IMG/VR virus record: IMGVR_UViG_3300044733_006041
Span: 1 to 38,817 of that record
Source of the DNA: a virus
Reading direction: 5' to 3' (one strand)
DNA length: 38,817 nt
Positions 22,089 through 37,421 of the stretch are shown here, in pieces; the stretch's first letter is position 1; each line of letters starts with the position of its first letter. The notes below the pieces were generated by a model. That model was not told the DNA's origin. It was given only the letters and a program-made list of their open reading frames with translations, and did not search any database. The position numbers and the translations under genes are program-made.

Positions 22089-23096
22089 CTATAATACTTG
22101 AGAAGCTATTAGACACCCTTTTGCAACAGCATGAAGAGGATCATCAGCATGGATCACTTCTTTTATTGGTAGTGGAAAATTATTTTCTATTAATTTTTTA
22201 TGAAAAGTTTCTACATATCCTTTTGCTAGTGATGTTCCACCAGCTATAACTATTTTGAGAGGTTCTTTAAATTTTGGTAATGCTTTATGATTACTTAAAG
22301 CAACACTTAAATATTTTGTAGTATAATCTATTAATCTATCATAATAAGAGCATACTGCTTCTAAAACAGGACTCTCATTAGTTTGACCAATCACATAATC
22401 CCCTTGTTCTTTTTCTGCCTGAACGACACTATCTGGTTCTCCCATAGCAACAGATACCATACGATCTATCCAATCTCCTGATTTTGTTGTACTAAAAGTT
22501 ACCGTTGGTTCTCCATTGAGCATAACACAAACATTTGTCATACCGGCACCACAACTCACGCCTATTCCCGTATAATCGCTGTCCTCCAACCCAGCATAAC
22601 ACAATGCTTCTGCTTCATTAATTGCTCTAGCATCATAACCCTGTTCTGCCAAAATACTTTTTACAACATCTTCGTGATATCCAACATCAAAATCATCATC
22701 CTCTTGATCTACTGGCTGTGCTGGTTTGCAGAATATTAGTTTTTCACCTGGTTTTGATGCTGTCCCGACTACTTCTTTTAGTATAAAAGCCAATACTTTT
22801 TTTGCTTCTTTTTCTTTTGATGAAACAACACCTTTATACATTGGCCTTTTTGCGCTATCGTTTCTTTCAATAGCTTTTTCTATAGCATCTTTTCCTAATA
22901 GTATAAATGAATTATCACTATCTTTAATAAATATTTTACCGCTTAATCCTTTTTCGATCATTTTTGTTGCAACAGGAGTAGATGGCCTTATAACATAAAA
23001 AGCATCTCTAAACTCTTTATACTCTATATTTTCGTTTGTATTTTTAGCGAGAACTATGTAACTTGTTCCCACATCTAACCCAACTCCATCACTCAT
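22089..23096 (-). CDS. actin/ParM-like ATPase
   Basis: 335 aa with the five-motif actin/Hsp70 ATPase plan: phosphate-1 GLDVGTSYIVLA (6-17), connect-1 INEAEALCYAGL (159-170), phosphate-2 GIGVSCGAGMTNVCVML (177-193), adenosine motif IVIAGGTSLAKGYVETF (283-299), and a C-terminal connect-2-like HAVAKGCLIASQ. Such proteins polymerise to segregate DNA or organise the cell, or act as chaperone-type switches. The length matches bacterial actin-like filaments. No DNA-binding partner gene is obvious next to it. Strong AAAGGAG ribosome site before the ATG. Confidence 0.85.
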   Translation of the reverse strand: MSDGVGLDVGTSYIVLAKNTNENIEYKEFRDAFYVIRPSTPVATKMIEKGLSGKIFIKDSDNSFILLGKDAIEKAIERNDSAKRPMYKGVVSSKEKEAKKVLAFILKEVVGTASKPGEKLIFCKPAQPVDQEDDDFDVGYHEDVVKSILAEQGYDARAINEAEALCYAGLEDSDYTGIGVSCGAGMTNVCVMLNGEPTVTFSTTKSGDWIDRMVSVAMGEPDSVVQAEKEQGDYVIGQTNESPVLEAVCSYYDRLIDYTTKYLSVALSNHKALPKFKEPLKIVIAGGTSLAKGYVETFHKKLIENNFPLPIKEVIHADDPLHAVAKGCLIASQVL

Positions 23097-26321: not shown

Positions 26322-26929
26322 TTCTTATAGTAATTATTAATATTTAATATTATACCTAATAAGTATAAACTAAATTCTTTAACATATACACATCCATTAC
26401 TTTGTGATGGTATATTATTGGTATTTTTCCAGTAAAAATTATTATCTCTATATTCGAATCTATTTGTATAGTCGTTGTGTCCGTAGATAGCGCCCGGTCT
26501 AATTATGATAGAATCAATACTTAGTGATAGTACATATTTTTCTAATTCTTTTTTATTGTAACAATACCAGTAGTACGGATCATTTACATCTTGTTTGTTT
26601 AAAACATTATCATCTAGTACACTTTGAGTAGATATTAAAAGATATTTCTTACAGTTAATATACTGTATTGTGTTTTTATACTGTTCAACATTATAACATG
26701 AAAAATCTACCACTATATCAAAAAATTTATTCATAAGATTTGAACAAGACAATCCGTTGTTCCTATTGATATAGATATGTTCTAAATCTTTAAATATTGT
26801 TTTATTGGTTATTCCTCTATTTGCTAGTGATATATTAATATTAGTATTTTGTATGGTTGTTTCCACAAAGTCCCTGCCAACCATTTGTGTTCCACCAAGA
26901 ACTAGAATTTTTAAATTGCTATTATCCAA
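26300..26929 (-). CDS. NAD(P)-dependent epimerase/dehydratase-like, TTG start
   Basis: 209 aa, short for the family. ILVLGGTQMVGRDFVE (8-23) is the dinucleotide loop, LLISTQSVLDD near 96-106 replaces the usual S-S-x-x-V-Y strand, and YCYNKKELEKY offers a Tyr-x3-Lys pair. The substrate-binding half is shortened, so activity is uncertain; CSP41/UDP-sugar epimerase-like proteins are closest in pattern. It starts at a TTG within the DUF1501 stop (TTGGATAA) with AGGAGATATAA just upstream, so TTG use is convincing. Confidence 0.7.
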   Translation of the reverse strand: MDNSNLKILVLGGTQMVGRDFVETTIQNTNINISLANRGITNKTIFKDLEHIYINRNNGLSCSNLMNKFFDIVVDFSCYNVEQYKNTIQYINCKKYLLISTQSVLDDNVLNKQDVNDPYYWYCYNKKELEKYVLSLSIDSIIIRPGAIYGHNDYTNRFEYRDNNFYWKNTNNIPSQSNGCVYVKEFSLYLLGIILNINNYYKNQILQIP

Positions 26930-28196
26930 TTATATCTCCTAAAATTTTACCATTATCAATAATTTTAACAGGTCTATTTCCTGGAGCTATTAGATGTTTA
27001 TTATGATCAATGCCTAATAGATTATATAGTGTGGCGCCCCAGTCCTCTACACTCACCGGATCGTCCTGTGGTTCGCTTGCTGTGTCATTGCTGGAGCCGT
27101 ATACCAGTCCTTTTTTAATTCCGCCCCCTGCCATGACTATAGAAAAAACACGCGGCCAATGATCTCGTCCAGCGGTTGGATTTATTTTTGGAGTACGACC
27201 AAATTCTGTGGCAACACAAACCAGCGTTGAATCTAATAGGCCTTTTTCATCTAGGTCATTTATTAATGCAGAAAAAGCTTTGTCAAAAGATGGCAACTGA
27301 CTACCTATATTTAGTGCTATATTATCGTGGTGGTCCCATCCACCATAAGTTACATTCACGAATCTGACCCCGGCTTCCACTAACCTTCTGCTTAGTAGTA
27401 GTCTCATTCCTGCCGCAGTTTTACCATAAATTTCTTTGGTCTTATCGTCTTCTTTGTTAATATCGAATGCTTGTATAGCCTGAGACGAATTCATAATATC
27501 ATAAGCATTTTGATAAAAAGAATTCATAGAATCCAAAGAGTCGGACTTTTGCCTAACATTGAACTCTTTGTTGACTATTTCTAGCATTGCTTTTCTTTTG
27601 TCAAATCTATTTATAGATATTCCATCTGGTAGTGTTAAATCTCTAACTTTAAAGTTTGGATCTTCTGGATTTCCACCAAGACTAAATGATGAATAACTAT
27701 GACTAAGATATCCAGCACCAGCAAATTCATTAGGTACATTTGGTACTGTTATATATGGAGGTAAATTATTCCTGACTCCTAATTGTTGACTGACTACTGA
27801 TCCTAAACTCGGATACTGAATGGCTGGACTAGGACGATATCCAGTAAACATATTATTAGTTCCACGCTCATGTGCTGTTTCGCTATGAGTCATGGATCTG
27901 ATAATGCTAATTTTGTTCGCTATTTTTGCAGTTTCTGTTAAGTATTGACTAAAAAATATTCCAGGAATACTAGTTGATATACTATTTAAAGGACCCCTAT
28001 AATCAACTGGACTATTCGGTTTTGGATCAAATGTTTCTTGATGAGCATATCCACCCGGTAGATAAATATAAATCACTGACTGTGCTTTTGCTTCCTTCAC
28101 AGAAGGTTCTTCTGCTCTTAATTTTAGGTAGTCTCCAAGATTTAGTCCTAGATATCCTAAAACACCCGTATTTACAAAGCCTCTTCTGTTAAACAT
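26922..28196 (-). CDS. DUF1501 protein with Tat signal
   Basis: 424 aa. It begins MFNRRGFVNTGVLGYLGLNL, a twin-arginine signal, then VIYIYLPGGYAHQETFDPKP, SIIRSMTHSETAHERG and the C-terminal VCVATEFGRTPKINPTAGRDHWP block that defines DUF1501 (an alkaline-phosphatase/sulfatase-superfamily relative). ATG at 28196 has AAAGGATG upstream; ten further in-frame codons precede it but are unlikely to be used. The family is abundant in Planctomycetes, and finding it beside phage genes is unusual. The biochemical activity is not established; the fold suggests hydrolysis of a phosphate or sulfate ester. Confidence 0.88.
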   Translation of the reverse strand: MFNRRGFVNTGVLGYLGLNLGDYLKLRAEEPSVKEAKAQSVIYIYLPGGYAHQETFDPKPNSPVDYRGPLNSISTSIPGIFFSQYLTETAKIANKISIIRSMTHSETAHERGTNNMFTGYRPSPAIQYPSLGSVVSQQLGVRNNLPPYITVPNVPNEFAGAGYLSHSYSSFSLGGNPEDPNFKVRDLTLPDGISINRFDKRKAMLEIVNKEFNVRQKSDSLDSMNSFYQNAYDIMNSSQAIQAFDINKEDDKTKEIYGKTAAGMRLLLSRRLVEAGVRFVNVTYGGWDHHDNIALNIGSQLPSFDKAFSALINDLDEKGLLDSTLVCVATEFGRTPKINPTAGRDHWPRVFSIVMAGGGIKKGLVYGSSNDTASEPQDDPVSVEDWGATLYNLLGIDHNKHLIAPGNRPVKIIDNGKILGDIIG

Positions 28197-28227
28197 AAAA
28201 CATCCTTTTCTGGTTATATTATACACT

Positions 28228-28298: not shown

Positions 28299-29198
28299 TT
28301 AGTTAGTATAGTTTCCTATCACTCTGCCCTTTTGGGTTCGTGATATAAACTTTTTTCTAACCAAATATGGCTCTATGCTATTTTCAATAGTTTCTACAGC
28401 AATACCAGTAAGAGAAGATATTGCTTTTAAGCCTAATGGATTACCTTTATTGCTTAGTAGTAGATTCAAATACATTCTATCATAAGCATCCAATCCGTCT
28501 TTATCGATACCTTGAATACTAAAAATCTCATCTATAGATTCTGTAGAATTTGGATGACAGGTCTTGTAATTTTTATACCATTGTAATCTAGAGTTTAGAA
28601 TTCTAGGAGTTCCTTTGCTTCTTTTAGCGATCTCAACAAGATCAGTCTCATCAATAGAAATAGAGAGTTTATCACAGTTCGATCTTGCTAGTTTAGCTAA
28701 ATCAGTATCGTTATAAAAACTAAGATGTTCTTTGATACTGAATCTATCATAAAATGGTTGACTTAAACTACCACCGCTAGTTGTTGCTCCTACCAAAGTA
28801 AAAGCTGGAAGATCAATAGTTTCTGGTTTTTTCTCTAGAGTAATAGTTAATACAAAGTCTTCCATAACAGGATACAAAAATTCTTCAACAAGTTTTGGTA
28901 GCCTGTGAATTTCGTCGATAAATAGAACTGATCGTGGTGCAATTCCCATAAGATATGGAATAATATTTTTAACACTTCTGAGATTTGCCGCGTTGGTTGT
29001 GTACAGATTCACGTTCAATTCGTTGGCGATAGCACTCGCTATGGTAGTTTTGCCAAGGCCCGGTGGCCCATCTATTAAAGTATGTGGCATCACGGTTGAT
29101 GTTTTTAAACAGCCCGTCACGCTGACTTTTAGCCTGTTAATCACATCGTCTTGCCCAAGAATTTCGCTAAATTTAGTTGGCCTTATACCTTTAGACAT
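28299..29198 (-). CDS. ruvB: RuvB-like Holliday-junction branch-migration helicase
   Basis: 299 aa AAA+ ATPase with RuvB layout: Walker A GPPGLGKT (44-51), Walker B LFIDEIH (92-98), sensor 1 GATT (137-140), a likely arginine finger in PFYDRF (R152), sensor 2 SKGTPR (R199), and a C-terminal winged helix with LKAISSLTGI then ENSIEPYLVRKKFISRTQKGR. This last block is diagnostic of RuvB. It lacks about 30 residues of the bacterial N-terminus. It is coupled by an 8-nt overlap to a zinc-ribbon gene with a RuvA-domain-III-like end. Probably drives branch migration in phage recombination or replication. Confidence 0.9.
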   Translation of the reverse strand: MSKGIRPTKFSEILGQDDVINRLKVSVTGCLKTSTVMPHTLIDGPPGLGKTTIASAIANELNVNLYTTNAANLRSVKNIIPYLMGIAPRSVLFIDEIHRLPKLVEEFLYPVMEDFVLTITLEKKPETIDLPAFTLVGATTSGGSLSQPFYDRFSIKEHLSFYNDTDLAKLARSNCDKLSISIDETDLVEIAKRSKGTPRILNSRLQWYKNYKTCHPNSTESIDEIFSIQGIDKDGLDAYDRMYLNLLLSNKGNPLGLKAISSLTGIAVETIENSIEPYLVRKKFISRTQKGRVIGNYTN

Positions 29199-29616
29199 TT
29201 TTTATCTCCAATGATTTTAATGATAACTCAATAAGTTGTACGGCATTATCGGTTTGATTAATTAGATACGTTTTAGTTAGTATGTCTTTAGCCTCTTGGT
29301 TTTCAAAGCCATACTGAACCAGTATTTTAACACATTTGTTTAACAAGTCAACCGGAATTCTTAATTCAGATTTATTGTGTTCTATTGCATCCTCGTTTGC
29401 GTTAGGCTTTTGCTTTACTTTAGATTTATCACTATATTTGATTTTTATGTTGTCTATTGTTTTTGGCCTAAACACTGTTCCACAATCACAAACAATCTTG
29501 AAATTTTTGGTCTTGACTTCTCGTAAAAATAACCAATGATTAGCACCACAATTTTCAGACGGACATCTATATAGAAAAGAAGCATCAACCTCAATCGGTT
29601 TCAGGTGTTTCATCAT
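29191..29616 (-). CDS. zinc-ribbon protein with RuvA domain III-like C-terminus
   Basis: 141 aa. An N-terminal zinc ribbon uses Cys18, Cys23, Cys43 and Cys45 (YRCPSENCGANHW and IVCDCGTVF). A charged linker (about 55-85) leads to residues 91-137, which align by eye with the C-terminal RuvA domain that contacts RuvB: the phage LVQYGFENQEAKDIL corresponds to the RuvA pattern L-V-x-L-G-Y-x-x-Q-E-A. DNA-binding domains I and II of RuvA are absent. Its stop overlaps the ruvB ATG (ATGTCTAA). Likely a RuvB loader or regulator; this is inference. Confidence 0.6.
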   Translation of the reverse strand: MMKHLKPIEVDASFLYRCPSENCGANHWLFLREVKTKNFKIVCDCGTVFRPKTIDNIKIKYSDKSKVKQKPNANEDAIEHNKSELRIPVDLLNKCVKILVQYGFENQEAKDILTKTYLINQTDNAVQLIELSLKSLEIKNV

Positions 29617-30007
29617 CTTTTATCCAGAAAACAAAATCATTGATTTGTTCATCATAAGCGGACTCTATCATGCCCTTACTTGCTAATGATGATAGCATAT
29701 TACTAACTAGTCGTCCATTCATTTCTTCTATAATTTGTGAAAATATTTTTTCATCAATTAAGTATCTTGACTCATTTGTGATTTTATGTTTTTGTTCTTT
29801 AGCCAGACTCTTAACTATGACCAGAGATTCTTGCTGAGTTAAAATTTGATCCATTTCGTTAATGTCCTCCTGACTAATTTCTGTAATAAGTTTTGTAAAC
29901 TCGTCAGGATCATCTCCTATGCTTTTATCAAAACCATTGAATACTAGTTTTCTTGCTGACTTTGTAAACTCTTCTAAATCATCTATAATATAGTTTTGTT
30001 TACCCAT
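29591..30007 (-). CDS. conserved phage protein (138 aa)
   Basis: Acidic, mostly helical protein. YIIDDLEEFTKSARKLVF starts the first helix; LVSNMLSSLASKGMIESAYDEQINDFVFW near 99-127 looks like a winged-helix or small helical domain conserved among large phages in my memory. No function known to me. ATG follows a good GGAG site. The 3' end overlaps the zinc-ribbon gene by 26 nt, so the three genes from here to ruvB are probably one translational unit. Confidence 0.65.
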   Translation of the reverse strand: MGKQNYIIDDLEEFTKSARKLVFNGFDKSIGDDPDEFTKLITEISQEDINEMDQILTQQESLVIVKSLAKEQKHKITNESRYLIDEKIFSQIIEEMNGRLVSNMLSSLASKGMIESAYDEQINDFVFWIKDDETPETD

Positions 30008-30021
30008 ATCTTTCTCCGTAT

Positions 30022-30207
30022 TTATTTAAGTTCAAGTGTAACTGAAAAAATTGGCTTGTATATTTTTGTGGTAAAGTTTGATTCCTCTACAACTTTGATA
30101 CAAATATCTTCTAGAAAATTCAGCCTAGTTTCTATCTCTTTAATAGCATCTGTTCTAGAAAATCTGACTACTCTATCTGAGGATTGAAAATATAAGATAT
30201 ATTTCAT
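30022..30207 (-). CDS. small hypothetical protein (61 aa)
   Basis: MKYILYFQSSDRVVRFSRTD followed by a helix (AIKEIETRLNFLEDICI) and two strands (TTKIYKPIFSVTLELK), a beta-alpha-beta pattern. No family recognised. It sits 1 nt after the upstream stop and 14 nt before the next gene. Its real status rests on strand, spacing and balanced composition. Confidence 0.5.
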   Translation of the reverse strand: MKYILYFQSSDRVVRFSRTDAIKEIETRLNFLEDICIKVVEESNFTTKIYKPIFSVTLELK

Positions 30208-30208
30208 A

Positions 30209-30604
30209 TTAATTTAGGATATCAAATAATCCTTTGTAGTAATGTGGTTGTAATACAAAATGAACAGCATGACTTTGAATGTGGTTTAAGTACTCTCTGG
30301 CTAATCCAGCGTTAGCAAAGTACTCTTTTTTCCATATGGGTTGTTTCTGATAGTTAATCCCCAAATACTGGAAGTTTTTAGGCTTCTCAGTATTGGAGAA
30401 ATAACTATTCACAGGAAACGACTTTTTGGGAAAATTAACATACCACACATTTGATGATCCTTCGACTATATCATTTAGAGCATCATATAGCATTTTACCC
30501 CAAGCATCCCAAGCGGCTGGATCAAACTTGAAATAGTGCTTATATTTGTCTTGAGCATCGTCATAATCATGCTCATCGTTATAGTTGTCATCGTCTTGGT
30601 GCAT
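30209..30604 (-). CDS. hypothetical protein (131 aa)
   Basis: Starts with an acidic, disordered stretch (DDDNYNDEHDYDDAQDKY) followed by an aromatic-rich domain with WDAWGKMLYDALNDIV, NVWYVNFPKKSF and HAVHFVLQPHYYKGLF. No known family recognised. It lies between two small genes in the core phage block, with an AGG-containing leader. Possibly a structural or nucleic-acid-associated protein, but I cannot support either. Confidence 0.55.
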   Translation of the reverse strand: MHQDDDNYNDEHDYDDAQDKYKHYFKFDPAAWDAWGKMLYDALNDIVEGSSNVWYVNFPKKSFPVNSYFSNTEKPKNFQYLGINYQKQPIWKKEYFANAGLAREYLNHIQSHAVHFVLQPHYYKGLFDILN

Positions 30605-30609
30605 ACTAC

Positions 30610-30867
30610 TTACCTATAACTATATCTATTTTGATTGGCTGCATTTTTACGATTGCGTCCTCTACGACCCTTAAATCCTAGTCTCTTTATAATATTATTA
30701 ATCGTTTGACGAGTTAGATAATATCTATTACCATAAAACGAGTGGTCTACAAAATAATAGTAAAGTCCTACCGAAGATCCTGACTCATTCATCAATTCAA
30801 TAAATTTTTTCTTGGCTTCTTCATCAGTCAATAAAAGCTTTAGCAGAGGATTAATGTGTCTACCCAT
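30610..30867 (-). CDS. small basic helix-turn-helix-like protein
   Basis: 85 aa from the ATG at 30867, which follows AAGGAGAAAACAA; an earlier in-frame start would lack such a site. The core YYLTRQTINNIIKRLGFKGRR near 51-71 reads like a helix-turn-helix recognition pair, and the C-terminus GRRGRNRKNAANQNRYSYR is strongly basic. Likely binds DNA or RNA, perhaps as a regulator of the operon; no family name can be given. Confidence 0.55.
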   Translation of the reverse strand: MGRHINPLLKLLLTDEEAKKKFIELMNESGSSVGLYYYFVDHSFYGNRYYLTRQTINNIIKRLGFKGRRGRNRKNAANQNRYSYR

Positions 30868-30904
30868 TTGTTTTCTCCTTGTTTTATTATAAGGTTGTGT
30901 CAAA

Positions 30905-30926
30905 GGGTATAGAGTCTCCTATACCC
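30905..30926 (-). terminator. hairpin after the primase-like gene, possible terminator
   Basis: Perfect 8-bp stem GGGTATAG (30905-30912) and CTATACCC (30919-30926) with a 6-nt loop, about 15 nt downstream of the primase-like stop. On the minus strand it is followed only by TTTG, so termination may be partial or the hairpin may process or protect the mRNA. Confidence 0.45.
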
Positions 30927-30940
30927 CTGACACTAAACCC

Positions 30941-32089
30941 TCATCCGATACAAAACTTATCACTAAGTTGATTGGCCAAATCTTTTGCCGCACTACTAAG
31001 GAAACGATTATTACTAAAGTAGAGAGGCGTTGAGACTTGATTAAGGAACTCTACAACGGTCTTTAAAAGTTTGGTCTGCTGACCATCAAGGTTTATATCC
31101 TCGTCGGCAGACTCGCCCATAAGACTTGTAAGAGCGTCTGTCTCTTCGTCAAGATCGCCATCAATATCGCCATCAAGATCGCCATAACTTGGAGTAATCG
31201 ACACAGGATCTCCATACACACGTTCTGCTATAGCATATTTATCCAATCCTTTTGGACCCACGTTCTGTAACTCATTAAGAATTTTTGAAGCAACATCCAC
31301 TGTCACCGGAATGCCGGTCATATCAGACTGCTTATATGCTTTGGCATAACCCTTATACCATTCGTCACTGCATTTCTCAGGAATTATCTGTAGAGTAGCG
31401 GGTTGACCAGTAAGAGCAGACTTTAGATCGGCAACATTAATTGGTTGACCAGTGCTACCGGGAAGTAGACTTGTAAAATATGGAGCCTTCTTTTCCCATT
31501 CCTTACGCCACCAAGTATAAGGTACACGATAAATCTGATTGGGCTTAATCGCTCTTGGATCGCCATCAAAATAGTTGACCAACTTCTTTTGAAGACCATT
31601 CCAGAAAGTTTTGTTACTTCCAACAATTTTACGACTAGCATCATCAAAAATCCAGTAACACTGATAGCCATTACGAGTATCAACTACCCAACTAGGCTTA
31701 ACAGGAAACCCATTAATCTTTTTGAGGAATTGCTTTTTCTTATTCATAACAACGCTGGGCTTAAAATACTTTCCATCGCTATCACGACCAGCATCCATAT
31801 CGCAAAAGCAACAAGTAAACTGCTTGATAGCATACATTTTGCGACCACCGTTTACATAGAAGTAAACATCAGAATGATTATTTACATTTGCTTGCAAAGC
31901 ATCGTCAATATCATTCGTATGATTCATACTACTAATCTTCTTACGAGGATTCCCATTATAAACAAAGATATGATTTTGCCTAAAAGATTCTAGAAACTTT
32001 GCCCTACTACCACCTGGGGCAGAATGACCGCCAGCATTAACGCTGCAACTTTTATCAAACGGATTAAACCCAAGATTATCACTAAACAT
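30941..32089 (-). CDS. primase-polymerase-like (AEP superfamily) protein
   Basis: 382 aa from the ATG at 32089 (AAGGA upstream), or 414 aa from an ATG at 32185 that lies inside a tRNA-like sequence. In the longer numbering FCDMDAGRD near 128-134 is the AEP metal motif (D-x-D), TRNGYQCYWIF near 170-180 matches the S/T-G-x-G-Y-x-x-Y-W strand, and GDPRAIKPNQIYRVP near 208-222 carries the third motif of RepB/PrimPol-type primases. The C-terminal third is acidic with a G-D-L-D repeat. Probably primes phage DNA replication; no helicase domain is fused. Confidence 0.7.
   Translation of the reverse strand: MFSDNLGFNPFDKSCSVNAGGHSAPGGSRAKFLESFRQNHIFVYNGNPRKKISSMNHTNDIDDALQANVNNHSDVYFYVNGGRKMYAIKQFTCCFCDMDAGRDSDGKYFKPSVVMNKKKQFLKKINGFPVKPSWVVDTRNGYQCYWIFDDASRKIVGSNKTFWNGLQKKLVNYFDGDPRAIKPNQIYRVPYTWWRKEWEKKAPYFTSLLPGSTGQPINVADLKSALTGQPATLQIIPEKCSDEWYKGYAKAYKQSDMTGIPVTVDVASKILNELQNVGPKGLDKYAIAERVYGDPVSITPSYGDLDGDIDGDLDEETDALTSLMGESADEDINLDGQQTKLLKTVVEFLNQVSTPLYFSNNRFLSSAAKDLANQLSDKFCIG
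31148..31183. repeat. three tandem 12-bp units in the primase-like gene
   Basis: Units GTCAAGATCGCC, ATCAATATCGCC and ATCAAGATCGCC follow one another exactly. On the coding strand they give the peptide G-D-L-D-G-D-I-D-G-D-L-D, an acidic linker that slippage could lengthen or shorten in frame. Confidence 0.8.
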
Positions 32090-32158
32090 ATTTGTTATGT
32101 TCCTTACTGTCCTATAAACTATGTTGGGATAAGCACCACACCTATCATAATCAACAAA

Positions 32159-32204
32159 AGAGTGTTGGCGGGATCGAACCGCCATAGCCCAAATTGCTCA
32201 CTCC
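32159..32204 (-). other. tRNA-like element without an anticodon arm
   Basis: Minus-strand reading: a 6-bp terminal stem GGAGTG/CACTCT (one G-U), a 3-bp arm AGC-(7 nt)-GCT resembling a short D-arm, and a perfect T-arm GGCGG-TTCGATC-CCGCC with a consensus T-loop. The anticodon arm and variable loop are missing, so it cannot decode. It lies between rIIB and the primase-like gene and covers the upstream candidate ATG at 32185. It may be a decayed tRNA, an attachment-site remnant or a regulatory mimic. Confidence 0.5.
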
Positions 32205-32211
32205 ATTTTTA

Positions 32212-33063
32212 TCAAACATAATCCTGATCAGGATCATAGTCTTCATCTTCATCTTCATACTGATTCCAGTAATCATCATCATACTCGTCATACAACTGCT
32301 CTTCATCGTCATCATAAGAGTCTTCACTAAATTCAGCTTTGTAAAGAGGCTTTAGTAGTTCGCCTTGATATTCACCAACAACTTCATATCTACAAGTACG
32401 AAGTTTCTCATGATTACAATCACTAGGAATGCTGACTACATCCTTTGGATTGATCTTAACAATCATAATATGATCGCCACTATCAGCACTACCATAATTA
32501 GCCACATAGTTTAAAGCACCAGCATGAAGTCCCTGAGAGCAACCAACACTACGATTATCGTCAACCTTAGCCCTATTCATTTGGCAGACTTGTCCAACAT
32601 GATTGTCAAATGTACCAGCATACTTATCCATATAATCGCTACGAACAGCCTTGTATGCTAGAAAATGACCATCCTCAGTAATTGGCAGATGCTCATGCTC
32701 CAAGAAATCATACAGTTCCTTTTGACTCTGCATACTAGGATTCTCCATAAGATTATTCAAGAAGTTTACAAGAGGCTGAAACGGTAGTCCCTTACTCATA
32801 AACTCTAGAATACGCTTACTAATACTGCCATGAACTTCTTCACCATCAAACAGCACCTTGCCGTGCTTGACCTCAACCAGACCATCACTAAATGATGATA
32901 CTGCCTTTTCAATATCCACCAAATCTAGCAACTCATCATTAGTTGCTGTTGGTAGAGCCTCAAGAATCAACTTGTAATTAATATGATCAGGAATAACTTG
33001 ATAAGCCTTATTATTCAAGATCAGCGTTAAATTACCATCAACCCACATAAACGGAACGCTCAT
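32212..33063 (-). CDS. rIIB: rIIB-like protein
   Basis: 283 aa. LVNFLNNLMENPSMQSQKELYDFLEH near 99-124, LPITEDGHFLAYKAV near 126-140 and NRSVGCSQGLHAGALNYV near 171-188 follow the conserved core of phage rIIB-like proteins. The last 35 residues are almost all Asp, Glu and Tyr and look disordered. It follows rIIA directly, as in T4, where rIIA and rIIB affect exclusion by a lambda prophage. The exact biochemical role is unknown. The leader has CACAGGAAA and GAGGAG before the ATG. Confidence 0.82.
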   Translation of the reverse strand: MSVPFMWVDGNLTLILNNKAYQVIPDHINYKLILEALPTATNDELLDLVDIEKAVSSFSDGLVEVKHGKVLFDGEEVHGSISKRILEFMSKGLPFQPLVNFLNNLMENPSMQSQKELYDFLEHEHLPITEDGHFLAYKAVRSDYMDKYAGTFDNHVGQVCQMNRAKVDDNRSVGCSQGLHAGALNYVANYGSADSGDHIMIVKINPKDVVSIPSDCNHEKLRTCRYEVVGEYQGELLKPLYKAEFSEDSYDDDEEQLYDEYDDDYWNQYEDEDEDYDPDQDYV

Positions 33064-33086
33064 TTTAGTTCTCCTCTTTTCCTGTG
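33064..33086 (-). promoter_or_regulatory. rIIB leader with CACAGGAAA and GGAG elements
   Basis: Minus-strand CACAGGAAA (33078-33086), then AGAGGAGAACTAAA and ATG. The rIIA leader has the same CACAGGAAA block, 3-nt gap, GGAGA and ACT-A-A-A run. It probably sets ribosome binding and could be a shared translational control site. Confidence 0.5.
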
Positions 33087-33089
33087 AAA

Positions 33090-35744
33090 TTATTTGATCA
33101 AAACACCCAGACTATTTCGTAACTGTTCAATACCATTTTCATCAATAGTTAAAAACCATGCTGGCGGAGTATAGTAGCGATTATGATTTACTCTAAGCGG
33201 ATTAGAGGAACCTATTCCGTTCAATCCCCCATCAGCACTAGTCCCATCCAACGTACTACTCACAATATACTTGAGCATCGGCACCTTGTCAACCTCCGCT
33301 TTAAAGTTTTTTCTAAGATCACTACTTTTCGTTATCGACTCACAAAAATCTTTGGATTCTTGAGAAATTGATACTATCTTAGATGTATAATCTTCACTAT
33401 ACATAGTATTGATCTCACTCTTTAAGATATTAAACTCTTGAGTTTGTTTACGAATCTTCTCAGGATCAATACCATTCATATTATGTTTTGCTAATATTTT
33501 TGTCATAACAGCAAAGTATTCTGACTTCTTACAAAACTTCATATCAAAACTATTATGAATAACATGAGCAAAAAAGTAATGAATCATCCATTGATCGACC
33601 AGATTACAAAGTTCCGATCCACCAATATACTTATGATAATCAATACCAAAAATGCTTAGAATAGTAACCGCTATATGCCTATCTGCACGAATTCTATAGT
33701 AACCATAAGTCTCATTCTTCTCGTCTGCATTATACTGTTCAGTACAGTAGTCCACAATATTCTTATATGATCCAACTTCTCCGCAAAGTTTACTCATCAT
33801 ACTCTTTAATTGAGGCTTGATCCAAGCATTGAAATCAATAAGATTCAAATCTTTGATCTTACTAACAGCACTCTGCTTGATAGCAAGAATATTCTTGTCT
33901 TTCAATAGGTTATGAAGAGTGTGATTTTTATCTTTGATAATCTTATTAAGATAAGCAATAGACGGAAATCCTTCTACCGAAGCATACCTAATAATAGGAA
34001 TATAAATTGTCTCGTCTTGATCTTCAATAGTTTCGTAGGTATCTTCGTCTACTTCTCTTAGAAGATCGGACTCATTTATTCCATTACCAGACAATACTAG
34101 TTCATCGTTAGCGTCTGGACAATTAGCAATAACAAAAACCTCACCAGCACTAATCTTACCAAAAGAAACACTACTCTTGCGTGGTCCCTTACTGAGTAGA
34201 CTACGATAATCGGAAACATTAACTATATTGGTTTCTCCACCGATATCACTAATGATATCATCAAAACCTTCTGTAGAATCTTCTGGATGACTACTATCAA
34301 CCATAAGATAAGCAAAGCAATCATTTTGATTACAATACTTTGTCACAATCTTTTTGGCAGTTTCTTCACCCTTAACATCACAGCGGAAAAAGATCATTTT
34401 ACCACTCTTTTTGGTTCCGCTCCAATAGTATTGAGGAACTCCCTTGAGTGTTTCGTTATGGATTTTATCTGTTAGATAAACCATACGACGAGAACGATAA
34501 CCAGATGTTCTAAAATTAAAAACATACAACTGCTTATTTTTCTTGAACTTATATTCAAGATCTTTACCACTAGTTAATTCGTGGGTCTTGCCAGACTGGT
34601 CGGTCCATGATGCACCAGCGGTCCATCCACCAGCAAGATCGCTCAGATTATAATAAGTCTGATAAGCATCTACCAGATTAGTACACTGAGTAATCTTTTG
34701 AGTCATATCTTCTTTGAGTTGAAGATAAATATCTTGAGTTCTTTCACGCAAAACTTTAATAACATTTTTTGTGTACTGTAAACCTTCACGACTCACATCC
34801 ATTTCTAATTCACCAATATCAAAATTGATTTCAAGATACAAGCCGGACCCTAGAACCTCCTTGACTAGATTCTTCCAGTTATCCACATCAACCTTTTTGA
34901 AGGTACGATTCCATCTCTGGATAGCGTCATTGGAAGTGTCTTTTTCTGCTTCTCCAATAATCTTTGAACTATCAACAGGATAAGCAATATTACCCATGAT
35001 AGCAATAATACCACTATCAGCATTGTTGTATGCTGAAGGATATTGATCATTATTATTTGCTAGTCTACCAATCCTCCAGCCCTTACCATCAATAACAAAA
35101 TTGGTATAAGAGTACGAATGATCGGACAGATTCTCACCAAAACCACCCTCAATAATGGGCTTCATCTTGAAGTAATGGAAAATTCTTTTTGCTTTGGTAG
35201 TAAACTCGCCAAAGTCACACTGTTTAACAGCAAAACTAATTTCAAGACCATTGGGTTCCTTTGTTGGACTAATATCAAACAGATTAAGACTAGGAACACC
35301 ATTCTCGTCCATAGCAGCAATATAAGAATACTTAGTTCCGTTGTAATAAGATACTGTGCTAAAACTCTTGGTATAAGCAAACGGACTCTTACTACCTAAC
35401 CCAAGACAACCAACAAAATCATTACTATCGTTCTTGTTGCTTGCCCCATAAGTGGTATATAGTTCCTCCATATCTTGCTGACTAAGACCCGTACCATAAT
35501 CACGCACGGTAAAAGAAGGAACCGCTTGTGTTGGCAGAATAACCTTAAAAGGATTCTTATTACCAGCAGCAACATGAGCATCATAAGCATTTGTGCTTAG
35601 TTCACGAATAACTGCCATTACCTTATCGGAATACAGAGAGTCCGACAGGATTTTAAACATTTTGCTCGTTTGAGCAATAGTAAATTGATTACTGCTTTCC
35701 AAACCCCTACTATGAATTTCAACCGTTCGATCTGCAAGTTTCAT
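33090..35744 (-). CDS. rIIA: rIIA-like GHKL ATPase
   Basis: 884 aa. The N-terminal GHKL ATPase domain is clear: N-box VIRELSTNAYDA (45-56, Glu48, Asn52), G1 RDYGTGL (81-87), G2 GCLGLGSKSPFAYT (112-125), and a further NGLEISFAV strand near 164-172. The remaining 650 residues are probably transducer and coiled regions of the rIIA type. T4 rIIA is a membrane-associated protein affecting lysis and phage exclusion. It has its own strong promoter and GGAGACTTAAACG leader. Length is greater than T4 rIIA by about 160 residues. Confidence 0.85.
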   Translation of the reverse strand: MKLADRTVEIHSRGLESSNQFTIAQTSKMFKILSDSLYSDKVMAVIRELSTNAYDAHVAAGNKNPFKVILPTQAVPSFTVRDYGTGLSQQDMEELYTTYGASNKNDSNDFVGCLGLGSKSPFAYTKSFSTVSYYNGTKYSYIAAMDENGVPSLNLFDISPTKEPNGLEISFAVKQCDFGEFTTKAKRIFHYFKMKPIIEGGFGENLSDHSYSYTNFVIDGKGWRIGRLANNNDQYPSAYNNADSGIIAIMGNIAYPVDSSKIIGEAEKDTSNDAIQRWNRTFKKVDVDNWKNLVKEVLGSGLYLEINFDIGELEMDVSREGLQYTKNVIKVLRERTQDIYLQLKEDMTQKITQCTNLVDAYQTYYNLSDLAGGWTAGASWTDQSGKTHELTSGKDLEYKFKKNKQLYVFNFRTSGYRSRRMVYLTDKIHNETLKGVPQYYWSGTKKSGKMIFFRCDVKGEETAKKIVTKYCNQNDCFAYLMVDSSHPEDSTEGFDDIISDIGGETNIVNVSDYRSLLSKGPRKSSVSFGKISAGEVFVIANCPDANDELVLSGNGINESDLLREVDEDTYETIEDQDETIYIPIIRYASVEGFPSIAYLNKIIKDKNHTLHNLLKDKNILAIKQSAVSKIKDLNLIDFNAWIKPQLKSMMSKLCGEVGSYKNIVDYCTEQYNADEKNETYGYYRIRADRHIAVTILSIFGIDYHKYIGGSELCNLVDQWMIHYFFAHVIHNSFDMKFCKKSEYFAVMTKILAKHNMNGIDPEKIRKQTQEFNILKSEINTMYSEDYTSKIVSISQESKDFCESITKSSDLRKNFKAEVDKVPMLKYIVSSTLDGTSADGGLNGIGSSNPLRVNHNRYYTPPAWFLTIDENGIEQLRNSLGVLIK

Positions 35745-35769
35745 CGTTTAAGTCTCCAAGTTTCCTGTG
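35745..35769 (-). promoter_or_regulatory. rIIA leader matching the rIIB leader
   Basis: Minus-strand CACAGGAAA (35761-35769), CTT, GGAGACTTAAACG, ATG. It lines up with the rIIB leader over about 23 bases with few differences. GGAG is the likely ribosome site. Confidence 0.5.
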
Positions 35770-35779
35770 TGATACGCCA

Positions 35780-35808
35780 AGTATATCATCGACAATCGTG
35801 GTTGTCAA
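35780..35808 (-). promoter_or_regulatory. strong sigma70-like promoter of rIIA/rIIB
   Basis: Minus-strand TTGACA (35803-35808), 17-nt spacer, TATACT (35780-35785). Start near 35773 gives a leader of about 29 nt. It probably drives rIIA, rIIB, the primase-like gene and beyond. Confidence 0.8.
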
Positions 35809-35815
35809 GCGTTAA

Positions 35816-36121
35816 TTAAAAAGTTTCGTCGTTGTCGTTATTTTCTTCTCCATAAGACTCGTAATCCTCTGAGATATAATTATTTTCGTCATATGGCATC
35901 CACTCATCAGTATCGTCATATTCTATTTCTTCATCGTCTGGTTCATCTAAAATAATTTCAAATTCTTTTACCTTTTCTGCTATCTCATCCAATCTTCTAT
36001 TAATAAATTTAACAACCTTTTTTAGTTCCGATAAGTCTCTGCTATTAGATTCTTCTATTTTTAGAATTTGTTTATCTAGTTGTAGGATTTCTTTTAGCAT
36101 TCTTTCTATATCTTTTGACAT
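35816..36121 (-). CDS. acidic coiled-coil protein (101 aa)
   Basis: Residues about 1-58 are a heptad-like helix (IERMLKEILQLDKQILKIEE, then LKKVVKFINRRLDEIAEKV), and the rest is a highly acidic, disordered tail rich in Asp, Glu and Tyr. No family recognised. AGGAAAAG precedes the ATG, and a promoter-like sequence lies just upstream. The coil suggests oligomerisation, and the tail may mimic DNA, as some phage anti-host proteins do; that last point is speculation. Confidence 0.55.
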   Translation of the reverse strand: MSKDIERMLKEILQLDKQILKIEESNSRDLSELKKVVKFINRRLDEIAEKVKEFEIILDEPDDEEIEYDDTDEWMPYDENNYISEDYESYGEENNDNDETF

Positions 36122-36145
36122 AATCTTTTCCTATTAGATAGTTGC

Positions 36146-36174
36146 AATATCTAATACACCATTCTGATTGTCAA
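36146..36174 (-). promoter_or_regulatory. promoter candidate before the coiled-coil gene
   Basis: Minus-strand TTGACA (36169-36174), 17-nt spacer, GATATT (36146-36151; four of six matches). The -35 box contains the TGA stop of the upstream gene. A start near 36139 would suit the coiled-coil gene at 36121. Confidence 0.5.
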
Positions 36175-36500
36175 TAATATCTTTTATTAATGTTAGAATA
36201 CTCTTTTATGTCGCCATATTCCCTAATTTTTGTATCCTCATAAGGAGCGGCTATTCTTCTGTAGAATTCTTGCTTTATATTCTCTAGAACACCAGTGATC
36301 ATTGCTATTTTTGCATATGATTCTCTGCCCATCAAAGATGCAATGATTCTGGAAAATGAATAATTAATATCTCCAAGGATAGATGAAAAATCTTCATTAG
36401 TCATATTTCCATTTGTAGATTTTGGAATACCCAAACAAGTAATCATTTTATCTATACAAATATCTAACTCTTTTCTAATATCTTCTTTAATGTATGGCAT
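36171..36500 (-). CDS. conserved phage protein (109 aa)
   Basis: Starts MPYIKEDIRKELDICIDKM at an ATG preceded by GAGGAACCAG; the longer open frame upstream is in conflict with the neighbouring gene. Then GDINYSFSRIIASLM, SYAKIAMITGVLENIKQEFYRR and APYEDTKIREYGDIK. The combination R-R-x-x-A-P-Y-E-D-x-K-I-x-x-x-G-D is one I recall from many large-phage genomes with no assigned function. Overlaps the upstream kinase-like gene by 14 nt. Confidence 0.65.
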   Translation of the reverse strand: MPYIKEDIRKELDICIDKMITCLGIPKSTNGNMTNEDFSSILGDINYSFSRIIASLMGRESYAKIAMITGVLENIKQEFYRRIAAPYEDTKIREYGDIKEYSNINKRYY

Positions 36501-37338: not shown

Positions 37339-37421
37339 TGGGACTGGTGGGAGTCGAACCCACACTCCTAATAGGAAATGGATTTTGAGTCCATCGCGTA
37401 TGCCAATTCCGCCACAATCCC
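37339..37421 (-). tRNA. tRNA-Leu (CAA)
   Basis: Full cloverleaf on the minus strand: 7-bp acceptor GGGATTG/CAGTCCC (one T-G), anticodon stem ATGGA/TCCAT with loop CTCAAAA (anticodon CAA, reads UUG), a class II variable arm TCCT-ATT-AGGA, T-arm GTGGG-TTCGACT-CCCAC, and A as discriminator. CCA is not encoded. UUG reading may support the AT-rich phage codon use, including its TTG-rich genes. Confidence 0.93.

Follow-up and report, generated by a model that had tools for sequence, protein, structure and literature searches.

What is a tRNA-like fold without an anticodon arm doing at the downstream border of a viral rIIB gene? The question arises from 38,817 nucleotides of viral DNA, positions 1 to 38,817 of IMG/VR record IMGVR_UViG_3300044733_006041 (the window), in which rIIA (33090..35744; PHROG 612 RIIA, E=1.6e-113) lies upstream of rIIB (32212..33063; PHROG 609 RIIB, E=1.9e-72) and a primase-like gene follows (30941..32089, counted from its conserved start), all on the minus strand. 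Beginning 7 nt past the rIIB stop codon, on the strand of both rIIB and the primase-like gene, is an element (32159..32204) that the first-pass annotation had described as tRNA-like, devoid of an anticodon arm, and incapable of decoding, and for which it had proposed start-codon selection, an attachment site, or tRNA decay. The description and the position are both borne out by the analysis below, and the missing anticodon arm supports the inability to decode. Judged from the sequences of its relatives, the element appears to belong to an undescribed family of tRNA-like RNA structures (TLSs), and a literature search of incomplete coverage retrieved no description of a TLS at rIIB.

The window TLS, which we assign to class II, is defined as a whole (32159..32204, minus) by its sequence, its fold, and its conservation and covariation in relatives. 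It consists of the 5′ strand of an acceptor-like stem (GGAGTG; 32199..32204), a D-like arm of 3 bp with GG in its loop (AGC-AATTTGG-GCT; 32186..32198), a perfect T-arm (T GGCGG-TTCGATC-CCGCC A; 32166..32184), and the 3′ acceptor strand (CACTCT; 32159..32164), which pairs with the first; single A residues join the D-like arm to the T-arm and the T-arm to CACTCT. In relatives, the acceptor-like stem varies with compensation and both the D stem and the T-arm covary; the T-arm part of tmRNA models also matches here. A terminator search located a T-run (32156..32159) behind the acceptor stem. Unconstrained folding of the minus-strand RNA yields exactly three helices (acceptor-like, 3-bp D-like, and 6-bp T-arm) at −19.1 kcal/mol, compared with a mean of −13.8 kcal/mol for shuffled sequences (z = −1.9), which is only mildly unusual and, by itself, modest evidence. 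A descriptor combining a T-arm with 5/5 pairs, an acceptor with at least 6/7 pairs, and a D-arm with a GG loop matched the window twice, at this element and at a genuine tRNA-Leu gene, versus 0.03 matches in each window simulated with a first-order Markov model. A T-arm, an acceptor, and a GG-looped D-arm do not come together here by chance, and the tRNA-like structure of the element is nearly certain to be real. The tRNA-Leu (CAA; 37339-37421, minus) is the sole tRNA called in the window.

Relatives were collected in two scans of viral contigs. Searching with the primase-like protein yielded 80 loci, and a tRNA-like structure was found immediately ahead of the primase-like gene in all those with enough upstream DNA. 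Searching public contigs with an rIIB profile yielded 238 rIIB-bearing loci representing 108 distinct contexts, and a TLS lies no more than 260 nt past the rIIB stop codon in 223 of these loci and in 99 of the 108 distinct downstream contexts. TLS-bearing loci that have no primase-like gene nearby are also found (L087, L092, L096, L097, L112, L122, L147, L149, L170-L174, and L181). The TLS thus goes with rIIB, independently of the gene downstream. In seven of the 15 exceptions (L091, L232, L235, L242, L244, L245, and L265), an HNH-like gene separates rIIB from the TLS, which stays with the downstream gene; the inserted gene (L091 914-339, minus) encodes 192 aa and its HNH match (E=7e-4) is just below the cut-off. 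The true exceptions are L143/L144, L158, L160, L180, L184, L269, and the 595-kb uncultured phage LR756511 (L185). Strong plain stem-loops (−29 to −34 kcal/mol, z from −2.7 to −8.1) occupy the corresponding spot in L143, L158, L184, and L185, and no obvious structure was found there in L160 and L180. As a separate observation, a hairpin (CCTCGGAG...CTCCGGGG) ahead of the HNH-like gene seems to cover the region where the gene starts, an arrangement that recalls homing endonuclease genes under regulation.

The link to rIIB was also recovered irrespective of any protein, by scanning IMG/VR with patterns of four TLS sequence classes. All class II (9/9) and class III (26/26) matches lie beside rIIB, as do 35 of the 37 class IV matches, the other 2 being on contig stretches that show no rIIB but have the downstream gene order of the HNH-insertion loci. 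The class I pattern gave 17 matches beside rIIB and 9 elsewhere; the latter (L086, L088, L089, L095, L098, L101, L104, L106, and L107) were set aside as resembling ordinary tRNA genes or lying among them. The T-arm motif GGTTCGATYCC was counted in 12 large related records (105-233 kb), each of which has one to three copies, 21 in total: 12 at rIIB, 7 in tRNA-Arg or tRNA-Gly genes, 1 in an intron-split tRNA, and 1 in an unstructured context (L195). With this narrow T-arm pattern, no second TLS was found elsewhere in the 12 records. The odd T-arm of L187 turned out to belong to the 3′ portion of a tRNA that lies behind a group I intron-like sequence (L187 1621-1390, minus; 37.8 bits versus a cut-off of 50, at a contig end; related record G003). 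The nearest DNA in phage records is just an unrelated 75% match over 107 bases. Two rIIB relatives (L268, with a class III TLS, and L269) are on contigs binned with Chitinophagia and Flavobacteriales MAGs, a weak hint at Bacteroidota hosts.

The gene following the TLS in the window deserves separate consideration, as the first-pass annotation had suggested that folding of the element might select its start codon. The protein has a weak PHROG match (DNA polymerase/primase, E=0.0012), and no relatives were found in the PDB or in phage records. An upstream candidate start (ATG, 32185-32183) does indeed lie inside the TLS, as had been claimed, and opens a longer ORF (30941-32185). This ATG is not conserved, and many relatives can be aligned only from residue 33, corresponding to the ATG at 32089; we reject start-codon selection because of this lack of conservation, and phages without the primase-like gene (L087, L092, L096, L097, L112, and L147) retain the TLS as well. 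Between the TLS and the gene is a second RNA hairpin (32120..32158, minus), composed of a 7-bp stem, a 5/1 internal loop, another 7-bp stem, and a 5-nt loop. It is of the type GATATTG-NNNNT-GATRNNN..NNNYRTC-C-CAATATC, with invariant TGAT and TCCC, is represented by 19 versions in relatives, and covaries (97.7% of cells paired versus 79.3% in shuffled alignments; score 0.627 versus 0.257; 0/500 shuffles). No Rfam family matched it. This hairpin is present where the primase-like gene follows the TLS and was not seen where the gene is absent; its probable role is that of an operator or leader element for the gene, possibly a translational operator. L112 has a TLS identical to that of the window but is missing the primase-like gene as well as most of the second hairpin (relative to window positions 32150-30941), so that the gene looks like a removable cassette. 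Other genes of the window, all on the minus strand, include a full-length RuvB-type helicase near the rII genes (28299-29198), with N, lid, and C domains; a DUF1501 protein (26922-28226; E=2.3e-110), unexpected in a phage; and an actin-like protein (22089-23096; Pfam Volactin, E=1.4e-61) approximately 79% identical to its counterparts in L094 and L096, which by sequence would be a conserved phage actin.

Whether the stems of the TLS are maintained by selection was assessed on 41 distinct cores, spliced because the middle region varies in length. The first-pass annotation had named conservation and compensatory change in relatives among the checks to make, and both are strong. In the cores, 96.3% of cells are paired versus 65.3% in shuffled alignments, a percentage inflated by the choice of acceptor and D registers by pairing and of T-arms by loop; the variety of pair types across the three helices does not stem from these choices. 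Two-sided changes occur in 14 of the 15 pairs (198 such cells versus 61 in shuffles), the covariation score is 0.851 versus 0.249, and none of 500 shuffles was as high for cells paired, two-sided cells, or score. Sliding the partner columns by 1-3 positions reduces pairing to 45-60%. Compensatory changes thus affect the acceptor, D, and T helices across dozens of distinct versions, and since the stems have co-evolved in dozens of relatives, the TLS must do something.

Members of the family share a 6-8 bp acceptor-like helix that abuts, directly or almost so, a 3-4 bp D-arm with a GG-containing loop, and a T-arm of 5-6 bp with the loop UUCGA(U/C)(U/C), the T-loop consensus and the D-loop GG having also served as search criteria. 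The part that varies is the anticodon position, where there is either no insert at all, a stem (short or long), or a second T-arm with a D-arm. It is empty in class II and in L065, occupied by CAATAG-AATA-CTATTG in L068 and by a 5-bp stem in L081/L097, by a conserved ATACTAGTTA linker in class III, by a long bulged stem in class IV, and often by a branched arm in class I. In class V (L008, L017, L019, L070, L071, and L133), the far end of the arm carries a second T-arm with a second D-arm behind it, so that the predicted product would be a double-elbow molecule, a tRNA-like head within a tRNA-like body. As parsed, almost every version has just 0-1 nt of linker between the acceptor and D stems (tRNA residues 8 and 9). 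The usual first acceptor pair is A-U or G-U, not G-C, and no encoded 3′ CCA was seen in the versions inspected. No fixed acceptor/T length could be read from unconstrained minimum free energy folds, whose geometry was too noisy. A class I (L122) or class V (L008) TLS accompanies rIIB cores that are 98% identical to that of the window, so the fold rather than the sequence is kept, and TLS sequences are exchanged wholesale.

The family is not accounted for by the known RNAs against which it was compared. At the window element, ARAGORN called no tRNA, the Rfam tRNA model (RF00005) gave no match at its cut-off, and no other Rfam family reached its own. The first-pass annotation had also suggested looking for a full tRNA at the site in related phages, and ARAGORN found none there in 60 relative loci; one relative, L020, barely passes the Rfam tRNA cut-off (29.3 bits versus 29). 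A tRNA anticodon arm with a 7-nt loop is absent in the window, and in relatives the arm is absent, short, long, or ended by a T-arm and D-arm. The elbow, in contrast to the two-residue linker (8, 9), which the TLS lacks, is that of a tRNA, with a UUCRANY T-loop and the D-loop GG (both also search criteria). Only the T-arm aligns to tmRNA models (7 bits versus cut-offs of 47 and 84), ARAGORN being negative for tmRNA as well, and tRNA-Sec (RF01852; cut-off 47) is the top sub-threshold match for L050, at 19.4 bits, and for L045, at 14.7 bits. Neither yjdF nor another Rfam riboswitch matched at the scanned TLS sites. The anatomy agrees with that of mascRNA/menRNA: a reduced D-arm with two G, an acceptor and T-arm, no linkers, and a location on the 3′ side of a longer coding or transcript unit. 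For annotators, this means that TLSs are not to be taken for degenerate tRNAs and that standard tRNA finders miss them.

We favor, at somewhat less than even confidence, the view that the TLS is a 3′-end or intercistronic punctuation/processing element of the rIIAB mRNA, read by RNase P/RNase Z. The TLS would presumably be transcribed in the sense direction within the rIIA-rIIB message, just past the rIIB stop codon, and its D-loop GG would meet the T-loop UUCGA to form an elbow, with the acceptor stem stacked on the T-arm. It would thereby retain the parts read by tRNA-processing enzymes while being free of the anticodon arm read by the ribosome; RNase P, and possibly RNase Z, would recognize the elbow and cleave at the acceptor stem, and the cut would separate the rIIAB message from the downstream sequence and set its 3′ end (“tRNA punctuation”). 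Position, structure, covariation, a single copy in the large records checked, and class exchange are observed; transcription within that message, recognition, and cleavage are what we infer. A promoter-like pair (TTGA-type and TAT(A/T)AT) behind the TLS in six contexts suggests a transcription-unit border, and the plain stem-loops that stand where the TLS is missing (L143, L158, L184, and LR756511) are as expected of a 3′-end element. Punctuation is favored because of the position at the rIIAB border, these stem-loops and promoter-like sequences, the mascRNA/menRNA anatomy, and the RNase P precedents discussed below. Against it count the seven HNH-like insertion loci, where the TLS remains with the downstream gene, the two loci (L160 and L180) without obvious structure at the spot, and the lack of an encoded CCA together with the A-U or G-U first acceptor pair; given the latter features, the TLS may be a modest RNase P substrate.

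The main rival is a cis-acting leader, in which the tRNA-like fold would contact the ribosome and raise or regulate translation of the next gene, be it the primase-like gene or one encoding 131 aa. The TLS does sit in the leader of the next gene, approximately 4-30 nt before the start codon in primase-less L087, L092, L096, L097, and L149, and it is beside the downstream gene that it is kept in the HNH-like insertion loci. There is also a precedent in the yjdF riboswitch, which folds like a tRNA, and in cis-tRNAs that increased translation 2- to 6.3-fold when grafted ahead of a Shine-Dalgarno site (PMC9142559). These leaders share with the TLS a tRNA-like fold with D-loop/T-loop association in the leader of a bacterial mRNA (PMC9142559), but yjdF is a ligand-sensing leader controlling the Shine-Dalgarno site (PMC9142559), whereas the TLS follows rIIB whatever gene comes next and matches no Rfam riboswitch, including the yjdF family. 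Moreover, the next gene changes while the TLS remains, the distance from TLS to start codon varies widely, and in six contexts a promoter-like sequence intervenes, so that the main transcript of the next gene may lack the TLS altogether. On balance, we consider a translational leader unlikely, albeit the strongest competitor of punctuation.

Alternatively, the T-arm and T-run might act as an intrinsic terminator at the end of the rIIAB operon, the tRNA-like fold being incidental. The sole terminator-like site in the 6.7 kb from 29500 to 36200 is in fact the T-arm with ACACTCTTTT, a run of at least 4 T soon follows the TLS in 73 of the 90 distinct versions, and several TLS-less relatives have strong hairpins at the spot, some of them T-tailed. 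The defining combination of a GC-rich hairpin and an immediate U-run is loosely present in the window. Yet the T-arm is short and the T-run begins several bases past it; the remaining 17 of the 90 versions have at most 3 consecutive T, and T-runs are common because the genomes are AT-rich. A terminator needs neither the covarying GG-looped D-arm nor the consensus T-loop, leaving the elbow unexplained, and we regard this reading as distinctly improbable. Slightly more doubtful still is a function in trans, with the TLS released as a stable small RNA that mimics tRNA or acts as a decoy for EF-Tu or for tRNA-modifying or tRNA-cutting enzymes: the elbow and acceptor bound by such proteins are retained, class V has two elbows, and the fold is conserved without sequence conservation, but strict linkage to one mRNA junction would not be needed in trans, and neither a promoter of its own nor a CCA end was identified. 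Finally, the decayed tRNA or integration site proposed in the first-pass annotation is very unlikely despite the tRNA-like T-arm and the true tRNAs elsewhere in these phages, given the extensive compensatory changes in all stems, a fold kept while sequence classes swap, the fixed place beside rIIB, the lack of a full tRNA at the site in relatives, acceptor sequences that differ among phages, T-arm motifs in the 12 large records that are the rIIB copy or nearly all real tRNAs, and the lack of a duplicate bordering a mobile segment; the TLS may descend from a tRNA, but it is not decaying.

Mammals and organelles are known to have tRNA-like elements that recruit RNase P for the formation of RNA 3′ ends. 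If the punctuation reading is true, a covarying family fixed at a single operon border across many uncultured phages would mean that phages evolved the same trick, and the TLS classes, with no anticodon arm, a short or long one, or a double elbow, would be a natural series of substrates with which to ask what tRNA-processing enzymes need. That a free-standing tRNA elbow, sometimes two, without a decoding arm serves as phage mRNA punctuation, with host tRNA-processing enzymes borrowed for the rIIAB 3′ end, is a possibility that we advance tentatively, at clearly less than even confidence.

Among known systems, the principle is provided by RNase P, RNase Z, and CCA-adding enzymes, which measure the elbow and the acceptor helix (PMC4810234). 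The 3′ tRNA-like structures of plant viruses of the TYMV type are likewise viral tRNA mimics with a true elbow, but they terminate the genome of an RNA virus (PMC4810234), whereas the TLS is internal to a DNA phage genome and has no encoded CCA. Plant mitochondrial t-elements are tRNA-like structures in precursor transcripts that an RNase P activity cuts, as proposed here, although they are organellar, unrelated in sequence, and associated with a protein-only RNase P (PMC4919922). Bacterial RNase P cuts phage M3 RNA, C4 antisense RNA, polycistronic mRNAs, and tRNA-like structures (PMC11143913); such sites lie in phage or bacterial transcripts, as the TLS, a putative RNase P target, would, but the review presents none of them as a conserved family with covariation at the border of a phage operon (PMC11143913). 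The closest anatomical parallel is found at the 3′ termini of human MALAT1 and MEN-beta, where the elbows of mascRNA and menRNA recruit RNase P and RNase Z (PMC11693755). Like the TLS, mascRNA and menRNA keep the acceptor and T-arm, have a small D-arm with two conserved G, lack the junction linkers, have an odd anticodon region, and stand at the 3′ end of a longer transcript (PMC11693755). They differ in belonging to human lncRNAs and in that cutting by RNase P and RNase Z is established for them and proposed for the phage TLS, and the phage family includes versions without any anticodon-like arm or with two elbows. The likeness is one of anatomy rather than descent, with no sequence relation claimed.
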